NCBI GenBank assembly: GCA_963169325.1
Contig: CAUJEY010000233.1
Coordinates: forward strand, 1 to 64,000
Source: Bacteroidota bacterium
GTDB taxonomy: Bacteria > Bacteroidota > Bacteroidia > Chitinophagales > Saprospiraceae
Direction: 5' to 3'
DNA length: 64,000 nt
The notes under the pieces are model-generated. The model made no database searches. It saw nothing but the letters and a program-made list of their open reading frames with translations, and was not told where the DNA came from. A program made the translations under genes and the position numbers. Positions 35,024 to 56,529 of this stretch are shown here, one piece after another (within the stretch, counting starts at the first letter, position 1; each line of letters begins with the position of its first letter).

Positions 35024-35066
35024 AAGTGGAGCCGGACTCCATTTATTTCCCGCATCTTTGCAGGAT

Positions 35067-36644
35067 ATGGATATTGTAAAAATACGCCCGCTTAGCATCG
35101 ACGACTACGCCGGCTTGAAAACCTGCATGGTTCGCGCTTACGCGCAAATGCCGGAGGCTTTTTGGAAAGAACCTCAGATCAAACGCCTGCTCGATATTTT
35201 CCCGGAAGGGCAACTTGTTGTGACGCTCAACGATCAAATCGTCGGTTGTGCCTTGTCGATTATCGTCCGGTACGACCGTTTTGGCGACAACCACACCTAC
35301 CGGGAAATCACCGGCAATTTCACCTTCACTACCCACGATGCGGCAGGCGATACCCTGTACGGCATCGACGTGTTTGTTGACCCCGATTTTCGGGGCCGCC
35401 GCCTGGGCCGCCGCCTGTATGATGCCCGCAAAGAGCTGTGTGAGCACCTCAATTTGTCGGGCATCGTTTTCGGCGGGCGTATCCCGAAATATCACGAACA
35501 CGCGCACGAACTCTCGCCGCGCGCCTACATCGAAAAGGTAAAAAATAAAGAACTGCAAGACCCCACACTCGATTTTCAACTCTCCAACGACTTCCACGTG
35601 CGCAAGGTGTTGCGGGGTTATCTCTTGGGTGATGAAGAATCCAAAGAGTTTGCCACCTTGCTTCGTTGGGATAATATCTACTACACGCCCGTCACATCCA
35701 ATACAGAGAGCGCTTCTAAATCCGTGGTGCGGCTCGGCCTGGTGCAGTGGCAGATGCGCTCTTACCGCACCTTGGAGGAGTTGTTTGAGCAAATGGAATA
35801 TTTTGTGGATGCCGTGTCGGGTTACCGCAGCGATTTTGCCCTGTTCCCCGAGTTTTTCAATGCCCCGCTCATGGCCCAATACAATAGCCTGCCGGAAGGT
35901 GAAGCGATCCGGGCTTTAGCCGAATATACCGAGGCTATTCGCGATAAATTTGCCGAACTCGCTTTGGGCTACAACATCAACATTATCAGCGGGAGTATGC
36001 CTTTGTTGCGCAACAACCAACTCTACAACGTCGGTTACCTGTGCCGGCGCGACGGGAGTATCGACGAATATGAAAAACTGCACGTCACCCCGGATGAAGT
36101 CAAATGCTGGGGATTAAAAGGCGGGAACAAACTGCGCACCTTTGACACCGATTGTGGAAGAATTGGTATTTTGATCTGTTACGATGTGGAGTTTCCGGAG
36201 TTGTCGCGACTGTTGGCCGCAGAAGGAATGAACATCCTCTTCGTACCCTTCCTGACTGACACACAAAACGGTTTTTCCAGAGTGCAACTATGCGCACGGG
36301 CCCGGGCGATAGAAAATGAGTGTTTTGTAGCCATCGCCGGCAGCGTCGGCAACCTGCCCAAAGTGCATAACATGGATATGCAATACGCACAAAGCGCCGT
36401 GTTTACGCCCTGCGATTTTGCTTTCCCGGTCAACGGGATCAAAGCGGAGGCCACTCCCAATACGGAGATGCTGGTTGTGGCCGACGTAGACCTCGAACTG
36501 CTGCACGATCTGCGGCATTCGGGCAGTGTGCGCAACATGAAAGACCGGCGGACCGATTTGTACAGCATTGATTTTCAACAGGAAGGCGAGGATAAAACGA
36601 AAAAACGTGTCCATTTTCCGATTTTAGACGACAATATGGCCTGA
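35067..36644 (+). CDS. Bifunctional GNAT acetyltransferase / nitrilase-superfamily amidohydrolase
   Basis: A 525-residue fusion starting at MDIVKIRPLS. Residues about 1-200 form a GNAT domain (VFVDPDFRGRRLGRRLYDARK, the acetyl-CoA loop RGRRLG). Residues about 220-515 form a carbon-nitrogen hydrolase with the Glu-Lys-Cys triad visible: E262 (LFPEFFNAP), K337 (YEKLHVTPDE) and C371 (GILICYDVEFPE). This fusion is a known family; the substrate is usually undetermined. A CATCTTTG element ends 6 nt before the ATG. It is 43 nt downstream of the GH63 gene, so co-transcription is possible, but a link to mannosylglycerate is not evident. Confidence 0.9.
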   Translation: MDIVKIRPLSIDDYAGLKTCMVRAYAQMPEAFWKEPQIKRLLDIFPEGQLVVTLNDQIVGCALSIIVRYDRFGDNHTYREITGNFTFTTHDAAGDTLYGIDVFVDPDFRGRRLGRRLYDARKELCEHLNLSGIVFGGRIPKYHEHAHELSPRAYIEKVKNKELQDPTLDFQLSNDFHVRKVLRGYLLGDEESKEFATLLRWDNIYYTPVTSNTESASKSVVRLGLVQWQMRSYRTLEELFEQMEYFVDAVSGYRSDFALFPEFFNAPLMAQYNSLPEGEAIRALAEYTEAIRDKFAELALGYNINIISGSMPLLRNNQLYNVGYLCRRDGSIDEYEKLHVTPDEVKCWGLKGGNKLRTFDTDCGRIGILICYDVEFPELSRLLAAEGMNILFVPFLTDTQNGFSRVQLCARARAIENECFVAIAGSVGNLPKVHNMDMQYAQSAVFTPCDFAFPVNGIKAEATPNTEMLVVADVDLELLHDLRHSGSVRNMKDRRTDLYSIDFQQEGEDKTKKRVHFPILDDNMA

Positions 36645-36908: not shown

Positions 36909-36938
36909 ATCGCGCAAACTACATTAGTTTTGCGCGAT
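36909..36938 (+). promoter_or_regulatory. Promoter-overlapping dyad upstream of the TlpA-like gene
   Basis: Arm 36909-36921 (ATCGCGCAAACTA) pairs with 36925-36938 (TAGTTTTGCGCGAT) across a 3-nt loop, with one extra T. The right arm contains TAGTTTTG (36925-36932), an exact -7 consensus, and ends directly against the ATG at 36939. It could be an operator covering the promoter or, if transcribed from further upstream, a hairpin hiding the start codon. Confidence 0.5.
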
Positions 36939-38264
36939 ATGAACATGACATCTCTTTTTCGCTACGGGCCTTTCGCCCTGTTACTCGTTTTCTTATTTGC
37001 CGGTTGCCTGACCACCGATAATGCTTTCACCCGCGTAGCGCCCGGGAAATGGCGCGGCGTACTCGAACTGGAAAAATTCAGCGTGCCGGTTCGGGACAAA
37101 GACACCATCTACACCCTGAAAGAACAATTCCGGGAAGGCGAATTGCCGTTCAATTTCGAGGTAACCTACCTGGATGACGAACGCTTTTATATCGACATCG
37201 TCAACGGTTCGGAACGTATCCGCTGCGACAGCATCCGCTACGGCCGCAACCGGTCCACCGCCCGCGATACGTTCAATATTTATTTCCCGGAATACGCCTC
37301 CTACATCCATGCCGACGTGCGTGGCGGCGTGATGCAGGGCGAATGGGTGGTGACCACCAAAGACAACTACCGGATACCCTTCTATGCGCATGCCGGACGC
37401 GACTACCGCTTCACGTCGCTCAACCAGGCGCCCGTGGCCGACCTGAGCGGCGAATGGGCCGCTTTGCTGGGCATCGATACGGAAAAACCGGAACAGGCCA
37501 TCGGCGAGTTCCGGCAAAACGGCAACCACCTGGAAGGCACTTTCCGCACCGAAACCGGCGATTACCGCTTCCTGGAAGGGACCGTACAGGGCCGCAAATT
37601 CTGGCTCTCCTGTTTCGACGGCGCACACGCTTACCTGTTTTCCGGCAGTATCAGCGGCGATACCCTGCGGGGAGAGTTTCGCTCCGGCAAACACTACCGC
37701 TCCCTGTGGTCGGCCTGGCGCGATCCGAATGCCCAACTCGGCCATCCCGATTCACTGACGACCTTGAAAGCAGGCGCCCAACCGATCAATTTTTCCCTGC
37801 CCACACCCGAAGGCAAACCCATCACCTTTCCCGCCCCGGAATTTGACGGCAAAATCAAAATATTTACCATCATGGGCACCTGGTGCCCCAACTGCCGCGA
37901 CGAACAAAATTTCCTGGTGGATTATTTGCAAAAAAATCCGGCCATAGCCGGTAAAATGGCTGTCGTCGGTTTTGCGTTTGAACGGCATAAAGACCCGGCA
38001 CAAGCCAAAGCGCACCTTTTGACCTATAAAAAGAAAATGGGCATACCTTTTGAATTGGTATATGCAGGCAATTCCGGTACGGCAGAAGCGGCCAAAATAT
38101 TTCCGTCTCTGAATAAGGTCATGGCGTTTCCTACCATGATCATTTTAGACAAACAAAACCGGGTGCGCCGCATTCATACCGGCTTCGACGGACCGGCTAC
38201 TTCGAAATATGCGGAGTTTCAAAAAGAATTCGGAACGTTGATGGAAGAATTGGTGAAAGAATGA
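36939..38264 (+). CDS. TlpA-like thioredoxin-fold lipoprotein
   Basis: A 441-residue protein. The ATG at 36939 gives a signal with lipobox FLFAGC (Cys23 as lipid-bearing residue), so it is anchored to a membrane on the periplasmic side. Residues about 35-270 are a beta-rich domain with no recognised family, possibly two repeats (GKWRGVLELEKF and GEWAALLGIDTE). Residues about 290-441 form a TlpA/AhpC-type thioredoxin domain with the redox pair WCPNC (IMGTWCPNCRDEQNF) and the cis-proline loop MAFPTMIIL. Likely a periplasmic disulfide reductase. Similar fusions are common in Bacteroidota. The next gene starts after a large inverted repeat. Confidence 0.85.
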   Translation: MNMTSLFRYGPFALLLVFLFAGCLTTDNAFTRVAPGKWRGVLELEKFSVPVRDKDTIYTLKEQFREGELPFNFEVTYLDDERFYIDIVNGSERIRCDSIRYGRNRSTARDTFNIYFPEYASYIHADVRGGVMQGEWVVTTKDNYRIPFYAHAGRDYRFTSLNQAPVADLSGEWAALLGIDTEKPEQAIGEFRQNGNHLEGTFRTETGDYRFLEGTVQGRKFWLSCFDGAHAYLFSGSISGDTLRGEFRSGKHYRSLWSAWRDPNAQLGHPDSLTTLKAGAQPINFSLPTPEGKPITFPAPEFDGKIKIFTIMGTWCPNCRDEQNFLVDYLQKNPAIAGKMAVVGFAFERHKDPAQAKAHLLTYKKKMGIPFELVYAGNSGTAEAAKIFPSLNKVMAFPTMIILDKQNRVRRIHTGFDGPATSKYAEFQKEFGTLMEELVKE

Positions 38265-38340: not shown

Positions 38341-38487
38341 TGTTCAACCCCCCCCCATCCCCTCCCCCAAATGGGAGGGGGGCTTGATTTCGTGTTTTTT
38401 TTGGGGTTTTCGTACCCGGAATCAAAGAGCGACGTGAGTGCAAGCCCCCCTCCCATTTGGGGGAGGGGATGGGGGTGGGGTTGAACA
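38341..38487. repeat. 46-bp near-perfect inverted repeat rich in C and G
   Basis: Arms 38341-38386 and 38441-38487 differ by one inserted base and one change, across a 54-nt loop. Each arm contains its own smaller palindrome (CCCTCCCCC AAATGGGAGGGG). It lies between two plus-strand genes, 76 nt beyond the TlpA stop, and would form a very stable stem. It looks like a dispersed intergenic element. Confidence 0.7.
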
Positions 38488-38533: not shown

Positions 38534-41122
38534 ATGTCTACCATTCAACTTGTTTACTGCCGCGACAACGCAGATATAGCCGAAAAATTAGCCCATGAAC
38601 TGGGCCGGATCGGCATACCATTTCAGCATCATACCAACCGGCCCGACGACCCGCCCGGGCATTTAGCCCGGCAGGTGCAGGCATCGACCGATATGGTATT
38701 GCTATTGCTGACCGATAATTTTTTGAGAAGCGAAGCCTGTATGCAAGGCGTGTTGGCGATGTTTCAAACACTGACACGGCAAAACCGGCTGCTCACCATC
38801 GTAGCCGACGGCCGCGTCAGCCGGGACGGCGGCCACACATTCGAGCCGGTTTCTACCCAGTTCGACCGTGTGGTGCATGCCATTCAATACATGAATTTTT
38901 GGCAAACGGCCTACCTGGACCGCAATGCCGGATCGTCGCAGACGCCGCAGGCGGAAAAAGAAACCTACGAACAAGGGCTGGACGTGGTGCGTAGCATTGC
39001 CAATGAAATCGGCGAGTTGTTCAGCGTCCTGCGCGATGCGGGCTATTACACCTGGGATCAGTTTGAAGCCGACGATTACGCCTTGTTTTTCCGACATTTC
39101 GGCCTGCAAGACTGGTATGAACAATACCGCAAACTTTCAGCCCTGGAAGCCGAAATGAATGTGCCGCCTATTCCGGAGCAGGCGTCGGCCACACTCGTCG
39201 TGGAAACGCCGGCTTTTACCGGCCTGCTGGCGCCCGCGCCCACTGAAGCGGAAGATGATATTCAGATAGAAGAACCGCATGTTTTCAATGGAATAAATGG
39301 TCTTTTACGGGAAATAGAAGCCGAAGAAGTACAACCGGAACCGGAAATGGTTTCCCCGGCTCTCGGGCAGGAATTGCCGCCCTTGAAACGGCCGGACGTG
39401 CCCGGAAACGTTTCGTTGCCCGGCCGGGACGATGCCCAATCGGTTTTGGAACGATTGATCGGCGAAACCGAGCCGTCCCCCGAAGCCGCAGAAGCCGAAG
39501 CCCGGCAAATGGCGCAGGATGCCTGGTTTTGGCTGGAAAAAGGCCACACCGAACGCGGCCTGGAGCTGTTCCGGCTGGCTATCGAACAGCACCCGGAGCA
39601 GGAAAACCTGCGAGCTGAATACGGAAAAGCGCAGGCACAGTACGGCCGGCATGAACCGGAAATGGTGGTGGCGGAGCAACCGGCAGCGCAACCGGAACCG
39701 CCCGTGGAATCGCCGGCACAGGATCACGCCCAGGAGGCCACGTCGTACTTCCAAATGGGTGAAAATGCCCTGTCAAAAGGGGATTATCTCTTGGCAAAAT
39801 ATTGCTGGGACCGCGTCACGGAACTTCAACCACAGTTCCCCGGCATCTACCACAAATTAGCCCTGCTGACCTGCGATCACCTGACCGATTATAAAGAAAC
39901 CGCTGCGCATTACCTCGAAGAAGCCCTGGCTGTCGAGCCGGACAATGCCGACCTGCACTTCCGTTTAGCCCAACTCCTGCGCGATCACTTAGATCAGCCC
40001 GCTCCTGCGCTACAGCATTTTCGCGATACCGTCGTATTACAACCCGATCATGCACCCGCCTGGCTTGCCCTGGCGCAATGTACCCTCGACGCCGGCGACG
40101 AAGCCGAGGCAGAAACGCTTTACCGGCACGCCATCCAACTGAACCCCGGTCTGCATTCGGAGGCGCTCGATGCCCGCTTCCTGCCCCCGGCGCCCCCGGC
40201 GGAACAACCGGTGGAAGAACTTCCCGAGCCGGCCTTTGGCAGCGAATCTTTCCCGGAGCTGGAAATGGCTACCGAGCGTTCAGTCGAAATGCCTGCGCCG
40301 CCAGAATCTGACCAAACACCCCAAGCAGAACCCGTGCCGGTTCGGAAAAAAACGGAAGAAATCCTCACAGTGCTCATTACCGGCGCCACCTCCGGAATCG
40401 GACGGGCTACTGCTGCGGAATTTGCCCGGCACGGGCATCGCGTCATCCTCACCGGACGCCGCGACGACCGCCTTGAGGACCTGAAACGATCCTTTGAATC
40501 CGATTACGAATCGGAGGTACGCCTGCTTACTTTTGATGTGCGCGACCCCGAAGCGGTGAGCCGGCACCTCGAAACGCTCCCGGAAAACTGGCAAAATATC
40601 GATCTGCTCATCAACAATGCGGGCCTGGCCAAGGGCTTGTCACCGATCCACGAGGGTAGCCTGGACCACTGGGACACCATGATCGATACTAATATCAAAG
40701 GACTGCTGTACGTCACGCGCTGCATTGCGCCCGGTATGGTACGCCGTCGCAAAGGGCATATTATCAATGTCGGTTCCGTTGCCGGAAAGGAGGCGTACCC
40801 GAAAGGTAATGTGTACTGCGCCACCAAATTTGCCGTGGATGCCTTAACCAGCGCCATGCGCTTCGATCTGCATGCCTTCAATATCCGCGTCAGCCAGGTC
40901 AGCCCCGGCGCTGTGGAAGAAACGGAATTTGCCATCAACCGCTTCGACGGCGACGCGGAAAAAGCCCGGATTTACGACGATTTTCAGCCGCTGAAAGCCT
41001 CCGATGTGGCCGATGCTATTTATTTTATCGCCACGAGGCCGGCACATGTGAATATTCAGGATATTCTGATGTTCGGGACGCAGCAGGCGAGCGCGACGGT
41101 GGTGGATCGGTCGGGTAGATAA
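38534..41122 (+). CDS. TIR-like / TPR / short-chain dehydrogenase fusion protein
   Basis: An 862-residue cytoplasmic protein. Residues 1-95 resemble a TIR domain (IQLVYCRDNADIAEKLAHEL; PGHLARQVQASTDMVLLLLT; DNFLRSEACMQGVL). In catalytic TIRs the last block reads SxWCxxEL; here Gly72 stands where the catalytic Glu belongs, so NAD cleavage is doubtful. A helical region (130-210) and acidic, Pro-rich linkers follow. TPR-like helices lie at about 324-362 and 401-540. Residues 613-862 are a complete SDR: TGATSGIG (616-623), NNAG (694-697), catalytic Ser748, Tyr761 and Lys765 (YCATK), closest to YdfG-type NADP-dependent dehydrogenases. All parts are in one uninterrupted frame. TIR to SDR linkage is unusual; function unknown. 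Confidence 0.8.
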   Translation: MSTIQLVYCRDNADIAEKLAHELGRIGIPFQHHTNRPDDPPGHLARQVQASTDMVLLLLTDNFLRSEACMQGVLAMFQTLTRQNRLLTIVADGRVSRDGGHTFEPVSTQFDRVVHAIQYMNFWQTAYLDRNAGSSQTPQAEKETYEQGLDVVRSIANEIGELFSVLRDAGYYTWDQFEADDYALFFRHFGLQDWYEQYRKLSALEAEMNVPPIPEQASATLVVETPAFTGLLAPAPTEAEDDIQIEEPHVFNGINGLLREIEAEEVQPEPEMVSPALGQELPPLKRPDVPGNVSLPGRDDAQSVLERLIGETEPSPEAAEAEARQMAQDAWFWLEKGHTERGLELFRLAIEQHPEQENLRAEYGKAQAQYGRHEPEMVVAEQPAAQPEPPVESPAQDHAQEATSYFQMGENALSKGDYLLAKYCWDRVTELQPQFPGIYHKLALLTCDHLTDYKETAAHYLEEALAVEPDNADLHFRLAQLLRDHLDQPAPALQHFRDTVVLQPDHAPAWLALAQCTLDAGDEAEAETLYRHAIQLNPGLHSEALDARFLPPAPPAEQPVEELPEPAFGSESFPELEMATERSVEMPAPPESDQTPQAEPVPVRKKTEEILTVLITGATSGIGRATAAEFARHGHRVILTGRRDDRLEDLKRSFESDYESEVRLLTFDVRDPEAVSRHLETLPENWQNIDLLINNAGLAKGLSPIHEGSLDHWDTMIDTNIKGLLYVTRCIAPGMVRRRKGHIINVGSVAGKEAYPKGNVYCATKFAVDALTSAMRFDLHAFNIRVSQVSPGAVEETEFAINRFDGDAEKARIYDDFQPLKASDVADAIYFIATRPAHVNIQDILMFGTQQASATVVDRSGR

Positions 41123-41195: not shown

Positions 41196-42563
41196 TCATA
41201 CCAGTTTCTCCACCTGTTCCAGCAGCCATTCCTTCTCCGTGAGCGGCTCCTCGGCCTGTACCTGCCGGCGCAATTCCTGCAGGGCTTTTTTATCAAATAC
41301 ATTAATGGTCAATAAACGCTGCGTGAGCCGGATCAGGTTCAGGTAATTGGTCCGATGGTAACCGATGACCCGTTTGCGGTGGATAAAAGTGCGCATGGCT
41401 GTCAGGTGATTTTGCAGCACGTCGGGTTCGTCGAGTTCGTAGTAAATTTTCAGCGCCAGGGCTTTAGCGGGCAGGTTGAGCAGGAGGTCGCGATAGTTGG
41501 CCGTTTGCAGCAGGCCGAGGGCATCGCGCAGGCGGCCGCGGGCGTAGGCGAGTTTGGCCCGGTTGAAACTGTATGTGCTGTCGCGGTAAGTGCGTTCCAT
41601 GGCGTTTTTGTATTGATCCATAAAATGGTCGACCCAGGTCAGTTCTCCGCATTGAAGGCCGGCTGCCACGATGTTGTGATACGTGAAACGGGAGAGATAG
41701 CCATTTTCGAGCAGCGTGTCTTTGTGCAGTCCTTCCCGGTACAGGTCGAGCGCCTCGTGGAAGTAACTTCGGTTGCTGACATTGATCTGCCGGATGCAGA
41801 AATTGAGCGCAATCAGGTGTAATTCGCGCAATTCTTCCAGGGAAAAACAAGCTGCGTGGTCGAAAAGCGCCGTTTTGAGCTGCTGAAAAAACGGCTCGGC
41901 CGATTCCTCGCTCAGGAGGCGGTAAGCAAAATAATAGGCCCCGATAACCGGGTGTTCCTTCAGGTTTTCCGTTTCCACGTATTGTATTGCCTCCGGCAAA
42001 AATGCGATAGGCACCTCCATGCGATACACTTTTTTACGGTTGAGCAGGAGGCATATCTGCCGGAGTTTTCGTGCCAGCCAGGCATGATCGAGCGCTTCAA
42101 ACAACTGGCGTACGGGGGCTTCGTCTTCGGCAGGCGTGGTTTCCCGGTCGTACAATTGTTCGAAACGCAGGTGATACAGCCAGTCGAAATAGCCGGCGTT
42201 GCGCAATGGGTCTTCCTGCAAAGCGTCCAATGCCTGTCCCATAACCCGTTCTGCATCGGTTTTTAGCCGGCGTTTTTTGTAACTATGCGCCAGATGCCAA
42301 CTAAGCGCCGTTGTGTTTTGCTGCATTTCTTCGAAGATCATAAACTGTTCCAGTAAACGGAACAGATAACTGGCAACCAAGCGCCTGTTTTTTTCATCCT
42401 GCTCATTTAATTCCGGCTCAACATTGGATTGAGCCAACGAATCGAACAGTTCCAGCACGTCTGTACGGGTGTTGAAATACGGCGATTGCAGAAATTTTCG
42501 GAATTTCCGTTTTTCCGTGTTATTTAGCGTACCTATTGTTCGTTGTAACCGAACATGATTCAT
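41196..42563 (-). CDS. Helical-repeat protein of unknown function
   Basis: A 455-residue protein that appears wholly alpha-helical. It begins MNHVRLQRTIGTLNNTEKRK and then FRKFLQSPYFNTRTDVLELF, a start I associate with a Bacteroidota hypothetical family. Paired helices throughout (for example FNRAKLAYARGRLRDALGLL) suggest a TPR-like superhelix. No signal peptide, membrane segment or catalytic motif is seen. It is convergent with the TIR-TPR-SDR gene and divergent from a T9SS cargo gene, so context gives no firm clue. Confidence 0.7.
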   Translation of the reverse strand: MNHVRLQRTIGTLNNTEKRKFRKFLQSPYFNTRTDVLELFDSLAQSNVEPELNEQDEKNRRLVASYLFRLLEQFMIFEEMQQNTTALSWHLAHSYKKRRLKTDAERVMGQALDALQEDPLRNAGYFDWLYHLRFEQLYDRETTPAEDEAPVRQLFEALDHAWLARKLRQICLLLNRKKVYRMEVPIAFLPEAIQYVETENLKEHPVIGAYYFAYRLLSEESAEPFFQQLKTALFDHAACFSLEELRELHLIALNFCIRQINVSNRSYFHEALDLYREGLHKDTLLENGYLSRFTYHNIVAAGLQCGELTWVDHFMDQYKNAMERTYRDSTYSFNRAKLAYARGRLRDALGLLQTANYRDLLLNLPAKALALKIYYELDEPDVLQNHLTAMRTFIHRKRVIGYHRTNYLNLIRLTQRLLTINVFDKKALQELRRQVQAEEPLTEKEWLLEQVEKLV

Positions 42564-52400: not shown

Positions 52401-53989
52401 AATTCCGTCGCCGCCTGCGCCAGATCGACGGCCTGATGGCCTCCCGGAAAAACGGTCCCCTGCAATTGCACCCCCTTGCGGCCGGCGCCCTCGATGCGTT
52501 TACCAACCTGGTGCAACATGCCGATTTTGATAAAAAATTTCAGGAAAACCGCGAAAAACTGCGCGCCGCCTTCGAGGTTGAATACCCATTGCCCAAAAAA
52601 TTCAATGCCGAACTGCGTACTTACCAGCGGGAAGGATTCGAGTGGCTAAGCCGCTGTGCCGCCGCCGGACTGGGCGCCTGCCTGGCCGACGATATGGGCC
52701 TGGGTAAAACCGTGCAGGCCCTGGCATTCCTCACCACCCGTGCCAAACTCGGCCCCGCACTCGTAGCCGCCCCGGCCAGCGTATGCCGCAACTGGGTGGC
52801 CGAAACCCGAAAATTCGCCCCGGCCCTGCGCCCCATCCTGTTCGGCGAGGGCGACCGCGCCGCAGTGATTGACCAGGCCGGGAAAGGCGACCTGCTTATC
52901 GTTACTTACGACCTGATGACCCGTTCGAGCGAACATTTTATCAAAAAACAATTCAGTACCGTACTGCTCGACGAGGCGCAGTTTATCAAAAACCGCGCGA
53001 CCAAACGCAGCGAAACGGCCATGCAACTTCGCGGCGATTTCCGCCTCATCATGACCGGCACCCCGCTCGAAAACCACCTTGGCGAACTGTGGAACCTGTT
53101 TCAGTTTGCCAACCCCGGACTGCTGGGCTCCATCGAACACTTCAACGAACGGTTCGCCCTGCCCATCGAAAAATTTCGCGATGAAGACCGCCGCGACCAA
53201 CTGCGGCGGCTGGTGCAACCTTTTATCCTGCGCCGCCGCAAAGATGAAGTGCTGCGCGAACTGCCGGCCAAAACCGAAATCACGCTCAGCGTACCCCTCT
53301 CGCACGAGGAGCGCGTTTTTTACGAAGCCCTGCGCCGCAACGCGCTCGAAACCCTGAGCGCCGACAACAACAGCGGCGCCGGCGAAAAACACCTGCGCAT
53401 ACTGGCCGAGATCATGCGCCTGCGCCGCGCCGCCTGCCACCCCAACCTGGCCGACGCCAAAGCAGGCTTCAAAACGAGCGCCAAACTCGAACTGTTCGGC
53501 GAGGTTGTGGATGAACTGCTGGATAACGGCCACAAAGCGTTGGTGTTCAGTCAGTTCGTCGGGCACCTGGCGATTTTGGAAGCCTACCTCAAAAAGAAAA
53601 ATATCCGCTACCAATACCTCGACGGCCAAACGCCGCTGGCCGTACGCCAACAAAGAATTGAAGCCTTCCAATCGGGCGACGGCGATTTATTCCTCATCAG
53701 CCTCCGGGCTGGCGGTACGGGCCTCAACCTCACCGCCGCCGATTACGTCATCCACACCGACCCCTGGTGGAACCCCGCCGTGGAAGACCAGGCCACCGAC
53801 CGCGCGCACCGCATCGGCCAGGAAAAACCGGTAACAGTGTACCGTCTGGTGGCCGAACAAACGATTGAGGAAAAAATACTGCAATTGCACGCGCACAAAC
53901 GCGACCTGGCGGATTCGTTGCTCAGCGGCGCGGATGTGAGTGCGAAACTAACGGCGGACGATCTTTTGCAATTGATTGCGGAGGGGTAG
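49460..53989 (+). CDS. SWIM zinc-finger SNF2-family ATPase/helicase (1,509 residues)
   Basis: The ATG at 49460 (MSNITLHNFEQY) follows the -7 box; the longer frame has no support. SWIM finger: C69, C71, C78 and H80 (CACPYDQGICKH). A long helical and beta region of about 1,000 residues precedes the motor, as in bacterial HepA/Snf2-N proteins. Motor motifs: LRTYQREGFEWL, CLADDMGLGKTVQAL (Walker A), TVLLDEAQFIKN, MTGTPLENHLGELW, LFLISLRAGGTGLNLT and DRAHRIGQ. Its 3' end overlaps the converging cyclase gene by 68 nt. Likely DNA translocase acting on nucleoprotein complexes; not clearly part of a known defence system from its neighbours. Confidence 0.9.
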   Translation: MSNITLHNFEQYIPAAIVQRGRQLWKQWGVRSLMEEVPNEWRATVEGSSHDDYQVYIGLEGDTLEHSECACPYDQGICKHRVAVLFKIREIRATARPATGTTVYGKPKSRAEILAQARADRLTRARNIITLHQQSRDTATAVAGSPLYTNRDTTELFDEYVRLDETAEQIVKIAAVAWEPLSQTKLAEIFNACGFKNKGLSLYVKDMAVILPRLLSAGFLKPSGSQYQCEPAFAQTLCDRQFARDTDFQKIAQAVRQQLPLGWHAGSSDTERLFREMRLTRYLDRPGEFSRFFYDLINRQSSGITQQMLIDYWLPPVFDLEKLEMLPLGIRAFLLCEKMTRQTFYLLPADGYFFYTVENLAELGENSARLAGQLLLLRGDRAGLLKCLKQLGPVNAGAFAGFQHLLDGDAAQSVATFQQTLKELRRETRSTTNVLTNLGGIFQIMAQLKTRDVAFYPKIETHITKVFKDGTAYVQVYQLLRGVLHFLQNNKKPALAILRANYADSFPLVHFFLYLCQFWVDETLIDHEKLGVYHEELVRNEYAWLAAEMLVLRAELDPSNSDLRTESDRQMAALRIEPLVRLLPHVEEWENALNLLLGMAAKPGAATPENDTRVVWLVDFEQKSVQPKEQSFGKKGWTAGRTVPDYRLRSADLTGMTDQDKRIAQALNFGSYYYLDKSVAVWKALVGHPLLFLAKSPDIAVQLTEAQPELIVKQVDGGFQLQFSHPFEEEGFVIVKETPTRYKLLTISEEQAQIARAFNGQALFVPEKGADRLNAAIAGLSKRIPVQSAFEDQDLPVVAADARVCVHLLPVGDGFHVELYAKPFTDVPPYLSPGAGEPSVTALVDGQKVRTTRSLKAEKTNLAKLKKQVEVLQTVTPHDGVWALENAQECLELLTQLHPLAQNGDIILEWPKGEKMRVTAVVGFDQFKMRIKGEHNWFEVDGELRVDENRVLTMQELLAMSASGKQFVEIGPGQFIALTNEFRRRLRQIDGLMASRKNGPLQLHPLAAGALDAFTNLVQHADFDKKFQENREKLRAAFEVEYPLPKKFNAELRTYQREGFEWLSRCAAAGLGACLADDMGLGKTVQALAFLTTRAKLGPALVAAPASVCRNWVAETRKFAPALRPILFGEGDRAAVIDQAGKGDLLIVTYDLMTRSSEHFIKKQFSTVLLDEAQFIKNRATKRSETAMQLRGDFRLIMTGTPLENHLGELWNLFQFANPGLLGSIEHFNERFALPIEKFRDEDRRDQLRRLVQPFILRRRKDEVLRELPAKTEITLSVPLSHEERVFYEALRRNALETLSADNNSGAGEKHLRILAEIMRLRRAACHPNLADAKAGFKTSAKLELFGEVVDELLDNGHKALVFSQFVGHLAILEAYLKKKNIRYQYLDGQTPLAVRQQRIEAFQSGDGDLFLISLRAGGTGLNLTAADYVIHTDPWWNPAVEDQATDRAHRIGQEKPVTVYRLVAEQTIEEKILQLHAHKRDLADSLLSGADVSAKLTADDLLQLIAEG

Positions 53990-55766
53990 GTGTGCCGGAA
54001 TTTCCCGCCAAATACATCCTTACCCACCCAATCCCTTTCACTTCCACCGGCTCACGTGGCGTGGCCTCCACGGCATCGCCCAACAATTGCCGGGTTGTTT
54101 CAGACAGATTGATCCGGCCCGGTACGCCGAATTGTTCCATCCGAGCCGCGGTATTTACGGTGTCGCCCCAAATGTCGTAGGCGTATTTGGTTTTGCCGGC
54201 TACTCCCGCTACCACCGGGCCGGAATGCATACCGATACGCAACTGCAAATGCGGCCGGCCGTCGGGAAAGGTGGTGTTTTGTTGCGCCCACGCGAGCATA
54301 TCGGAGGCGGCCTGATACATCAGAAATGCGTGTTGCGGGTGGTCATTTGGCAGTCCGCTGGCGCACATGTACGAATCGCCGATGGTTTTTATTTTTTCTA
54401 TGCCGTAGTGGCCGATGATTTTGTCGAAGGCCTGGTAGTAGCGGTCGATGAGGCCGACCAGGTTTTCCGGCGGCAGAGAGTGGCCCAGTTCGGTGAAACC
54501 GACGAGGTCGGCAAACAGCACGGTCACGGCATCGTGGCGTTTGGGCAACACCTTGCCCGTGTGCCGCAACTCTGCGGCCACTGCCACAGGGAGGATATTG
54601 TGCAACAATTGATCCGTACGGCGTTGGTGGCGCCTGACAGTCCAAACCAAAGCGCCCAGTAACAGGGCGACGGCCAATAACCCGGCCAGAACGAATCGTT
54701 GCTGCTCGAGCCGGAGCGCCTGCGTTTCGCTTTCCCGGTTCAGCAGGGCAATTTCCTGTTCTTTTTTCTCCGTTTCGTACTGCACCTGCATGTCCTGGAT
54801 ATACCGGGTGTTTTCTTCGTTGACCAGTGAATCTTTGTAAATATGGTACCGTTCGAGCGATTCGTAAGCCTCCTTGTAATGCCCGGTCTTGCTGTATAAG
54901 CCGGCCAGATTGAGGTAAGCCAATCGGTACAATGCCTTTTCACGGCTTTGCGAAAGCCGGGCCAATGCCTGTTGATTCGCCTCCAGTGCTTCCTTGTATT
55001 GGTGCTGGTATTCCAGGATCGTAGCGCCGTTGAGCACCGCCCGGATAGCGCCGGCCTGATCGCCGATGCTGTCGCAAAGGGCCCGGGCTTTCCGGTAACA
55101 GTCGAGGGATTCGCGAAATCGTTTGGCATACTCCATGGTGACGCCGAGATTGTTCCAGGCCTGGGCCATGCCACCGGGATTGTTCGCTTGCTCATGGATG
55201 CGCAAGGCGCGACGGTGATAACTCTCGGCGCTGTCCAGTTGATTCGTTTCAGAAAAAACAGAACCTATATTGCTGTAAACCTTCCCCAGCCAGGCTGGCG
55301 GACCTTGTTTTTCAAAAAAATTGGCCGCCTGTTTCCAAAAACGAATCGCCGCGTCGAATTGATTCAGATAGTAGTTCAACGCACCGAGGTTTGCCCGGGT
55401 ATTGGCCTCACCGCGTTCATCGCCGGCGGATTCAAACAATCGAATAGCTTGCATGAGCTGTTCGGATGATTGCTGGTAATTGCCCTGGTCCATACAGGAA
55501 ATGCCGCTTTGGCGCAATAACTCTGCGCGCAAACGCGGGCTGTTTTCAACGGTAATGGCTTTAAGCGACTGTTCCAGTTCCACACTCAGTTGTTCCGGCG
55601 ACAAGGAAGTGGTGTCGAACCAGGCCTGCAAAGCGGACCAGGCCGCCGTGTCGGCGGGTGCGTATTGAATTTTGACGAGGAGTTCGGAGAGCGAGGAGGG
55701 TTTTCGGGCAAAAAGGGCAGTAAAACCCAGGCACAGGGCAAGGAAGAGGAGGATCGTTTTTTTCAT
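53922..55766 (-). CDS. Class III adenylate cyclase with TPR sensor region
   Basis: About 614 residues from MKKTILLFLALCLGFTALFA, a signal sequence placing the TPR region (about 80-330; for example GMAQAWNNLGVTMEYAKRF) outside the cytoplasm. A coiled coil and a single membrane helix (FVLAGLLAVALLLGALVWTV) follow. The cytoplasmic cyclase domain has metal-binding Asp in VLFADLVGFT and TIGDSY, the Lys of IEKIKTIG and Asp of YDIWGDTVN (adenine selection), and NTAARME. Together these predict ATP as substrate, giving cAMP. TPR-TM-cyclase proteins are common in Saprospiria. The reading end overlaps the SNF2 gene. The start position is set by frame and could be off by one base. Confidence 0.88.
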   Translation of the reverse strand: MKKTILLFLALCLGFTALFARKPSSLSELLVKIQYAPADTAAWSALQAWFDTTSLSPEQLSVELEQSLKAITVENSPRLRAELLRQSGISCMDQGNYQQSSEQLMQAIRLFESAGDERGEANTRANLGALNYYLNQFDAAIRFWKQAANFFEKQGPPAWLGKVYSNIGSVFSETNQLDSAESYHRRALRIHEQANNPGGMAQAWNNLGVTMEYAKRFRESLDCYRKARALCDSIGDQAGAIRAVLNGATILEYQHQYKEALEANQQALARLSQSREKALYRLAYLNLAGLYSKTGHYKEAYESLERYHIYKDSLVNEENTRYIQDMQVQYETEKKEQEIALLNRESETQALRLEQQRFVLAGLLAVALLLGALVWTVRRHQRRTDQLLHNILPVAVAAELRHTGKVLPKRHDAVTVLFADLVGFTELGHSLPPENLVGLIDRYYQAFDKIIGHYGIEKIKTIGDSYMCASGLPNDHPQHAFLMYQAASDMLAWAQQNTTFPDGRPHLQLRIGMHSGPVVAGVAGKTKYAYDIWGDTVNTAARMEQFGVPGRINLSETTRQLLGDAVEATPREPVEVKGIGWVRMYLAGNSGTPTPPQSIAKDRPPLVSHSHPRR

Positions 55767-55908
55767 CGGTAGCGGAATAGCACCGATGTGAGACGGGGGG
55801 AGGTGAGGAAAGGTGGCAGCGTAGAGTCGCTTTTTCCAAGCCTGCAGCGAACGGGCTCTGTGGATGACGGCAATGACCCGAACTTTAGCCTGTAAAAGTA
55901 ATTTGAAT

Positions 55909-56529
55909 TTACGTCTCCGCTTCCGCAGCCAGTACCGGCTGCTCAAAAATGTCGTTGACGCTCATTTCAAAACCCGGCAAGGCGGGCGCTGCCGAACAAA
56001 TCATCGCTCCGGTACAAATTGCCGGTTCGCCACCGGCATAAACATGGACTTGCCCGAGTTTGGGTGAGATGAGCCAGATCACCGCTACATCGGCATCGTG
56101 GTAATCTTTTAATTTATCCAGGAGATTGTCGACAATATCATTATCGGATATGATTTCAATAACGAAGTTCGGTATCTGGTTTTCACGCCGCGCCATCCGG
56201 GCGACTTGTTCGTCAGTGAACCAGGCCATATCCGGACGGCGATGGGCGTTTTTCAGAAAGAACGTATCCACTTCCGGGAGAAATTCGCCCTGTGCCTTTT
56301 GCTCCTGTTTAAGGCGGGTAAAATGTCGCTGAATATTCAGCAAAATGTAGTACTGATACTGATTCATTGCCCGGGGGGTTTTAACGACCGCGCCCCTGAC
56401 CCATTCGTATTTGAAAGCGTCTTCGCGGTTCAGGTATTGTGATTCAAACTCCTGCCAGGAAACAGGCTGCCGTACTTCAGCCATTTCCCGAACCGCGACT
56501 CCCGGAATATTAACGGCGGTAGATGCCAT
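55909..56529 (-). CDS. Uma2 family (DUF820) PD-(D/E)XK-fold protein
   Basis: A 206-residue protein starting at MASTAVNIPG; the frame continues upstream but the promoter lies there. The restriction-endonuclease-like core is visible: RRPDMAWF (Asp), NFVIEIISDND (Glu-x-Ile), KLKDYHDADVAVIWLISP. Uma2 proteins are widespread in cyanobacteria and Bacteroidota, and their role is not settled. A good promoter precedes it and no partner gene is attached. Confidence 0.85.
   Translation of the reverse strand: MASTAVNIPGVAVREMAEVRQPVSWQEFESQYLNREDAFKYEWVRGAVVKTPRAMNQYQYYILLNIQRHFTRLKQEQKAQGEFLPEVDTFFLKNAHRRPDMAWFTDEQVARMARRENQIPNFVIEIISDNDIVDNLLDKLKDYHDADVAVIWLISPKLGQVHVYAGGEPAICTGAMICSAAPALPGFEMSVNDIFEQPVLAAEAET

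Follow-up and report, generated by a model that had tools for sequence, protein, structure and literature searches.

Bacterial TIR domains are best known as NAD-cutting defence effectors. Here we describe a gene that places a TIR-like module lacking the catalytic glutamate (Glu) in front of a dehydrogenase. It lies in a stretch of 64,000 nucleotides from a Bacteroidota bacterium of the Saprospiraceae (assembly GCA_963169325.1, contig CAUJEY010000233.1, positions 1 to 64,000 of the forward strand), which we call the window. At positions 38534–41122 a single frame joins the TIR-like module to tetratricopeptide repeats (TPRs) and to a complete short-chain dehydrogenase/reductase (SDR). On balance, we lean towards the reading that a conflict-type TIR-TPR module was joined to a housekeeping redox operon and turned into a non-catalytic arm that assembles or regulates an NADP(H) dehydrogenase.

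The SDR domain resembles the NADP+-dependent serine dehydrogenase/YdfG branch (3asu and 3asv from E. coli, 3rku from yeast YMR226C and the sulfoacetaldehyde reductase 6ixj). However, the solved chains of that branch are about 250–290 amino acids long and armless, whereas about 610 residues lie N-terminal of the SDR domain in the window protein. The TIR module can be aligned over 184 columns with conflict-type TIR proteins of the phylum (L096, L191 and L194, also L192, L193 and L107), and in L096, L191 and L194 TPRs likewise follow the TIR. Unlike the fusion, the other TIR proteins mostly keep the catalytic Glu, and no SDR was found in those scanned (for L193, among the best 25 of 65 families). 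Adaptor TIRs such as MyD88 and TIRAP share the scarcity of Glu: one study calls this residue critical for TIR NADase activity and reports it in less than 10% of these adaptor groups (PMC7075850). The same study cautions that the presence of Glu does not always accompany activity, and describes a group 6 of bacterial TIRs, mainly actinobacterial, that bear many C-terminal tetratricopeptide repeats. Adaptor TIRs, however, belong to eukaryotic signalling, have different partners and carry no fused enzyme. The best PDB matches of our TIR profile are MyD88 chains (E = 0.005), a match too weak to prove special kinship. Among the open-licence PubMed Central articles listed by searches on TIR-dehydrogenase fusions, inactive bacterial TIRs and Saprospiraceae TIRs, none deals with this protein or describes a system of this order, in agreement with the original prediction for this gene, which knew of none.

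Architecture of the fusion protein

The fusion consists of the following parts, and its coordinates, length and domain order are those first proposed.

38534–41122, + strand: TIR-like/TPR/SDR fusion gene, 862 amino acids in one uninterrupted frame, stop included in the coordinates
38534–38818, + strand: TIR-like core, residues 1–95 (Pfam TIR_2, AlphaFold2, Foldseek, hhalign)
38747–38749, + strand: codon of Gly72, at the site of the TIR catalytic Glu (residue counts in the alignment)
38819–39157, + strand: helical extension of the TIR module, residues 96–208, with Tyr119 and Trp123 (AlphaFold2, hhalign, conservation)
39179–39475, + strand: disordered linker, residues 216–314 (pLDDT below 50; variable in the alignment)
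39479–39643, + strand: TPR-like helices, residues 316–370 (AlphaFold2)
39713–40180, + strand: TPR array, residues 394–549 (Pfam TPR families, AlphaFold2)
40205–40351, + strand: disordered linker, residues 558–606 (pLDDT below 50)
40367–41077, + strand: classical SDR domain, residues 612–848 (adh_short, nearest structures, triad)
40775–40777, 40814–40816 and 40826–40828, + strand: codons of the SDR triad Ser748, Tyr761 and Lys765

TPR helices do lie between the TIR and the SDR, as expected: the Pfam profiles TPR_17 (42.2 bits), TPR_2 (38.5 bits) and TPR_14 (37.5 bits) all score above their cut-offs, and AlphaFold2 models both helical stretches. In the full-length model (mean pLDDT 76.4, pTM 0.37) the ordered parts are joined by the two disordered linkers.

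The dehydrogenase itself is intact. Pfam adh_short covers residues 612–803 (E = 4.6e-55), the TGATSGIG motif is present, and both the triad and an NNAG motif are invariant in all 34 aligned fusions. In a wider set of 98 fused, split and stand-alone SDRs, Gly617, Gly621, Gly623, Arg642, Arg643, Asn694, Asn720, Ser748, Tyr761 and Lys765 never vary. The closest solved structure by sequence is 3asu (E = 2.7e-66) and by fold 3rku, 3asv and 3asu, so that NADP+-dependent serine dehydrogenases are among the nearest relatives of known structure. Arg residues at such SDR positions mark NADP use. The pair Arg642-Arg643, together with the NADP-dependent nearest structures, suggests that the cofactor is NADP(H) rather than NAD(H), as far as the sequence can tell. 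With the YdfG equivalog of NCBIfam (NF007829) the protein scores 259.2 bits and does not reach the cut-off of 411; hence any substrate class would be a guess.

The TIR module and its lost catalytic site

When residues 1–202 are scanned alone, TIR_2 (PF13676) matches residues 6–94 with 28.5 bits against a Pfam cut-off of 28. The score is 24.1 bits, under the cut-off, in a scan of the whole protein, and in the genome search the window protein scores 27.9 bits, or 28.2 bits together with its neighbours. TIR_2 is found at E ≤ 0.1 in 26 of the 35 N-terminal parts that were aligned, the window's among them. From these 35 sequences AlphaFold2 folds residues 1–202 with a mean pLDDT of 93.6 and a pTM of 0.89. 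The top nine Foldseek matches of this model in the PDB are all TIR domains (probability 0.99–1.00), with a best E of 1.4e-3, none at or below 0.001, and query-normalised TM-scores of 0.34–0.44. Other Rossmann-like folds rank only slightly lower (PurE in row 10, a WrbA-like protein in row 14). In the model, the match corresponds to the TIR core and the C-terminal half of the module is a helical extension (helices 113–132, 139–169, 174–188 and 192–208, with a gap at 180–182 in the full-length model). The original assignment of residues 1–95 as TIR-like is thus right about the type of fold and too short, since the well-folded unit reaches residue 202.

A comparison of alignments points the same way. 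The SDR-linked TIR module (35 rows) matches an alignment of nine genuine TIR modules with an hhalign probability of 99.45% (E = 4.9e-22), and the 184 columns span query residues 1–196, helical extension included. As controls, the TIR module reaches 0.38% against the SDR alignment and 0.27% against the lipoprotein alignment. The nine reference modules (L096, L191 and L194, all TIR then TPRs, L193, L192, L104, L105, L097 and L099) are weaker matches of the same profile, and the comparison is therefore not blind. Eight of them score at least 45.9 bits with TIR_2 alone, well above the cut-off; in L193 TIR_2 is not among the best 25 of 65 families. L193 combines its TIR with WD40 repeats and, judged by eye, a P-loop NTPase-like middle, L192 is a Schlafen AlbA_2 domain followed by a TIR, and L104 joins a TIR to an FGE-sulfatase domain. 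The N-terminal module of the window protein is homologous to genuine TIRs and has a TIR-like fold. The whole genome (G000) contains eleven TIR_2 matches at E ≤ 0.001 when the window's own is counted, ten of them above the cut-off, in frames of 175–1135 amino acids.

That Gly72 takes the place of the catalytic Glu of helix C has been confirmed, and the replacement extends far beyond this protein: Glu occupies the NADase position in 3 of 70 SDR-linked TIRs, compared with 14 of the 16 other TIRs that the profile detects. In the SDR-linked set the position holds Gly (36), Asp (7), Asn (6), Arg (5), Gln (4), Thr (3), Glu (3) or other residues (6), and in the two other TIRs without Glu it holds Lys or a gap. 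Three of the 70 (L041, L062, whose sequence equals L103, and L117) run into a contig end and were included although their SDR was not in view, L022 and L037 show the SDR in part, L094, L095 and L197 are split or broken, and L198 was dropped as too short. The BB-loop residues of the other TIRs (Asp in 11, Tyr in 12 and Lys/Arg in 12 of 16) likewise have no conserved counterpart among the SDR-linked TIRs. Both losses make an active TIR NADase unlikely, so far as residues predict activity. Two residues of the helical extension are kept in all 70 SDR-linked TIRs, Trp123 (15 of 16 others) and Tyr119 (8 of 16 others). A Pro-Gly pair in the window's BB loop, considered as a counterpart of animal Box 2, was dropped, as Pro is found in 20 and Gly in 29 of the 70.

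The module is nevertheless maintained. Ratios of nonsynonymous to synonymous substitution rates (dN/dS) are 0.03–0.19 for the TIR part in the nine of ten pairs with finite dS, 0.02–0.26 for the TPR part (10/10 pairs) and 0.03–0.12 for the SDR (8/10 pairs). The linker (residues 203–320) has the highest values of the four regions, 0.15–0.37 in the six of ten computable pairs; all of these values are rough, with dS above 1 in several pairs. Purifying selection acts on all three parts, TIR, TPR and SDR. Identities of the TIR and the SDR correlate across 65 proteins (r = 0.77, with 0 of 999 permutations as high), as expected from joint inheritance of both parts.

Distribution and the upstream gene

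A search with the N-terminal part finds matches in 30 of the 36 other genomes of the same genus, 29 of them frames of at least 654 amino acids and one a frame of 345 amino acids at a contig end; it finds none in the 23 genomes that belong to the order but not to the family. The TIR profile reaches further: at E 0.01 it matches 63 genomes among 298 of the order (56 belonging to family f1, by inference Saprospiraceae), and at E 0.001 it matches 9 among 395 of the phylum (three in f1). Its matches are not all fusions, and the 63 include non-fused TIR proteins such as L096 and L097–L100. The named records that carry the fusion bear the titles Saprospiraceae, Aureispira or Bacteroidetes bacterium, apart from one contig titled Thermoanaerobaculia (L051, JAKLJF010000276.1). 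The latter is probably a wrongly binned contig from a near relative of the window's organism: its fusion is 73% identical, its lipoprotein gene 81%, and its relative of the window gene at 53922–55946 71%.

This SDR is found at E 1e-60 in 102 of 120 genomes of the family, as 64 frames of at least 550 amino acids, one of 420 and 37 of less than 300. The long frames were counted as fused without an individual check for the TIR, and one of the loci seen (L196, 570 amino acids, at a contig end) has TPRs and SDR only; among the short frames, G254 is a split case and G767 matches part of the SDR only. Genomes with the long frames are larger (median 5.4 Mb, n = 64) than those with the short ones (4.1 Mb, n = 35; p = 7e-5 without correction for kinship; G254, G767 and G734 excluded). 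The window's own genome holds one copy, with one strong TIR-module match, a second at E 1.39, which is chance level, and one SDR match at E 1e-60.

Homologues with all three parts, another point raised with the original prediction, were collected from 62 fused loci. Two different sets of 62 are used here: the tree set requires a near-complete SDR and excludes the duplicate L114 (= L053), and the adjacency set requires an upstream stretch of 1.2 kb or more. The lipoprotein, the TIR-TPR part and the SDR are encoded by three neighbouring genes in L094 and L095, which come from two genomes of a single genus. In L197 one stop within the TPR region breaks the frame, a real split or an assembly fault, the two being indistinguishable. 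A quick SDR tree of 98 rows leaves 43 of 95 inner branches open and needs nine changes between stand-alone and other forms. By the approximately unbiased (AU) test, neither a single clade of the family's 28 stand-alone rows (p = 0.338) nor a single clade of the 67 fused, split and long rows (p = 0.457) is rejected.

Upstream of the fusion lie two features:

36930–38264, + strand: predicted operon partner, lipoprotein-like, with a TlpA/ResA-like thioredoxin domain (WCPNC; Redoxin/AhpC-TSA and TlpA/DsbE-like profiles; adjacency)
38341–38487, no strand assigned: 147-bp palindromic repeat that separates the lipoprotein gene from the fusion (39-nt arms, 97% complementary)

The upstream protein shares a thioredoxin domain with CxxC with the TlpA/ResA/DsbE thiol-disulfide proteins, but has some 270 residues before that domain and falls far under the NCBIfam cut-offs. 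We call it lipoprotein-like for Cys26 after LFAG, read from the sequence and not from a signal predictor. C26, W318, C319 and C322 are invariant in 29 of 29 sequences.

Immediately upstream and on the same strand, a TlpA-like gene accompanies 51 of the 62 fused loci, 26 of the family's 28 stand-alone SDR loci (L189 and L206 being the exceptions) and all three TIR-TPR halves. As originally counted the second class was 26/33, made up of the 28, of L058 and L061 (Bacteroidales/Prevotellaceae, without the gene) and of three SDR halves with the TIR-TPR gene between. In L109, L110 and L111 (genomes G104, G183 and G115), no lipoprotein gene adjoins the fusion and a relative lies elsewhere in each genome. 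Between the lipoprotein gene and the frame that follows it, the median distance is 31 bases in 49 fusions and −4 in 26 stand-alone SDRs, with start codons estimated by script; these short gaps suggest that the lipoprotein gene and the SDR frame form one operon. The original prediction saw ordinary flanking genes and a stand-alone role, which we reject because the upstream gene is conserved.

At E 1e-30, 96 of 198 genomes of the order, those of f1 among them, contain relatives of the lipoprotein. We read 20 of their loci in other families, and the close SDR was a neighbour in none of them. Weaker SDR matches near such relatives are L246 (114 bits, same strand and immediately upstream) and, further off, L237 (82 bits) and L242 (51 bits).

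The repeat element looks like a miniature inverted-repeat transposable element (MITE) or a repetitive extragenic palindromic (REP)-type element. It has 107 matching pieces in its own genome, both strands counted, and one arm recurs in 56 copies with at most two mismatches, against none for a control. Downstream of the fusion, on the opposite strand, 41196–42563 (−) encodes 455 amino acids with no clear family (best Pfam match TPR_2, E 0.36). A 528-amino-acid frame at 35058–36644 (+) joins GNAT acetyltransferase and carbon-nitrogen hydrolase domains.

Possible roles of the TIR-TPR arm

The role of the arm we infer from the pieces above. An assembly or sensing role of the TIR part, as first proposed, is plausible and would fit what the sequences show. 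Under the reading we lean towards, the SDR of the serine-dehydrogenase/YdfG branch would do the chemistry with NADP(H), and the TIR-TPR arm would have been captured by a pre-existing lipoprotein-SDR operon. The TIR part would act in an adaptor-like manner, by self-association or partner binding, and TIR and TPRs together would gather, place or switch the activity of the dehydrogenase. The arm would work by binding, because Glu and the BB-loop residues are lost while the TIR is still under selection. The neighbouring lipoprotein gene gives a hint of an envelope thiol-redox setting. A more far-reaching version, which we put forward only tentatively, is that an immune-type TIR-TPR protein has been domesticated into core redox metabolism. 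The NADase-dead TIR would then polymerise or recruit so as to assemble the NADP(H) dehydrogenase, and might link this enzyme to the thiol-redox partner in the envelope; it would be the bacterial equivalent of an adaptor TIR, serving a metabolic enzyme.

Several of our results weigh against a non-catalytic arm joined to a housekeeping operon. The likeness of the module to TIRs is moderate in Foldseek and borderline in TIR_2 score. Loss of Glu is not absolute, as L040, L108 and L116 retain it. More than a third of the SDR frames in the family (37/102) are short, and the arm is therefore dispensable for the SDR. Of the 62 fusions, 11 lack an adjacent lipoprotein gene (L026, L027, L029, L038, L055, L056, L102, L108, L109, L110 and L111), and in the window the gap to this gene is 269 bases, equal to the largest of the 49, with the repeat element inside. 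The full-length model shows no defined packing among the parts, and several SDR loops are of low confidence. The SDR tree favours neither the fused nor the stand-alone form as the earlier one, and neither a late gain nor repeated losses of the arm.

Some of these observations would also suit a fusion that is a mere convenient join of two operon genes, with TIR-TPR and SDR working independently. The two are separate neighbours in L094 and L095, the SDR occurs alone in many genomes, and the linker is long, disordered and fast-changing. We think such a join rather unlikely, since the long frames are the commonest form (64/102, the TIR part not verified in each) and since the family's TIR-TPR halves that were fetched (L094, L095 and L197) adjoin the SDR gene. 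The TIR part might instead be a nucleotide or NAD(P) sensor that binds a dinucleotide uncut and controls the SDR according to NAD(P) state. This idea draws on the fact that TIRs and SDRs both belong to NAD(P)-linked enzyme classes, and on the invariance of Tyr119 and Trp123 in the SDR-linked TIRs. Trp123, however, is also nearly invariant in other TIRs and may serve the fold, and with Glu and the BB-loop residues gone the usual pocket is not kept. Assembly is favoured over sensing because these pocket residues are lost, and we regard the sensor as unlikely.

The fusion might also be a defence protein, with the TIR-TPR part sensing invasion and the SDR as effector, for example by drawing on NADP(H). 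The nearest TIR relatives not linked to an SDR include TIR-TPR (L096, L191, L194), TIR-WD40 (L193) and Schlafen-AlbA_2-TIR proteins (L192) and, more weakly, EAD11-TIR proteins (L101, L107). Yet 98 of 102 genomes hold a single match to this SDR at E 1e-60, the TIR and the SDR have diverged in step, the TlpA-like upstream gene is conserved, and sister genomes have the same SDR alone in the same operon. A PADLOC scan of the protein found no anti-phage system; its sole match was a weak one to PrimPol (E 4.7e-4) over the TPR region. A defence protein of this kind thus seems quite improbable to us. The original prediction also named an SDR kept as a separate gene, with the fusion due to a sequencing error, as evidence that would speak against it. 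Separate SDR genes exist, as in L094 and L095 and in the many genomes with the SDR alone, but beside so many intact fused frames they do not point to a sequencing error in the window. The split or broken loci L094, L095 and L197 are what an assembly or sequencing artefact could point to. Against it stand the 62 fused loci and the intact, stop-free frames from the genome searches; independent assemblies refute it, and we give it practically no credence.

If the TIR-TPR module is indeed a non-catalytic arm of the dehydrogenase, a widespread Glu-less TIR, fused to and inherited with an enzyme, would be a natural bacterial case of a TIR that does not act as a catalyst. The family would also supply its own controls: sister genomes with the armless dehydrogenase, and genomes in which arm and enzyme are neighbouring genes. 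A TIR domain without its usual catalytic residue, helical repeats and an intact NADP-type dehydrogenase thus share one gene that is widespread in a single bacterial family, which suggests the reuse of an immune module to organise or control an ordinary enzyme.

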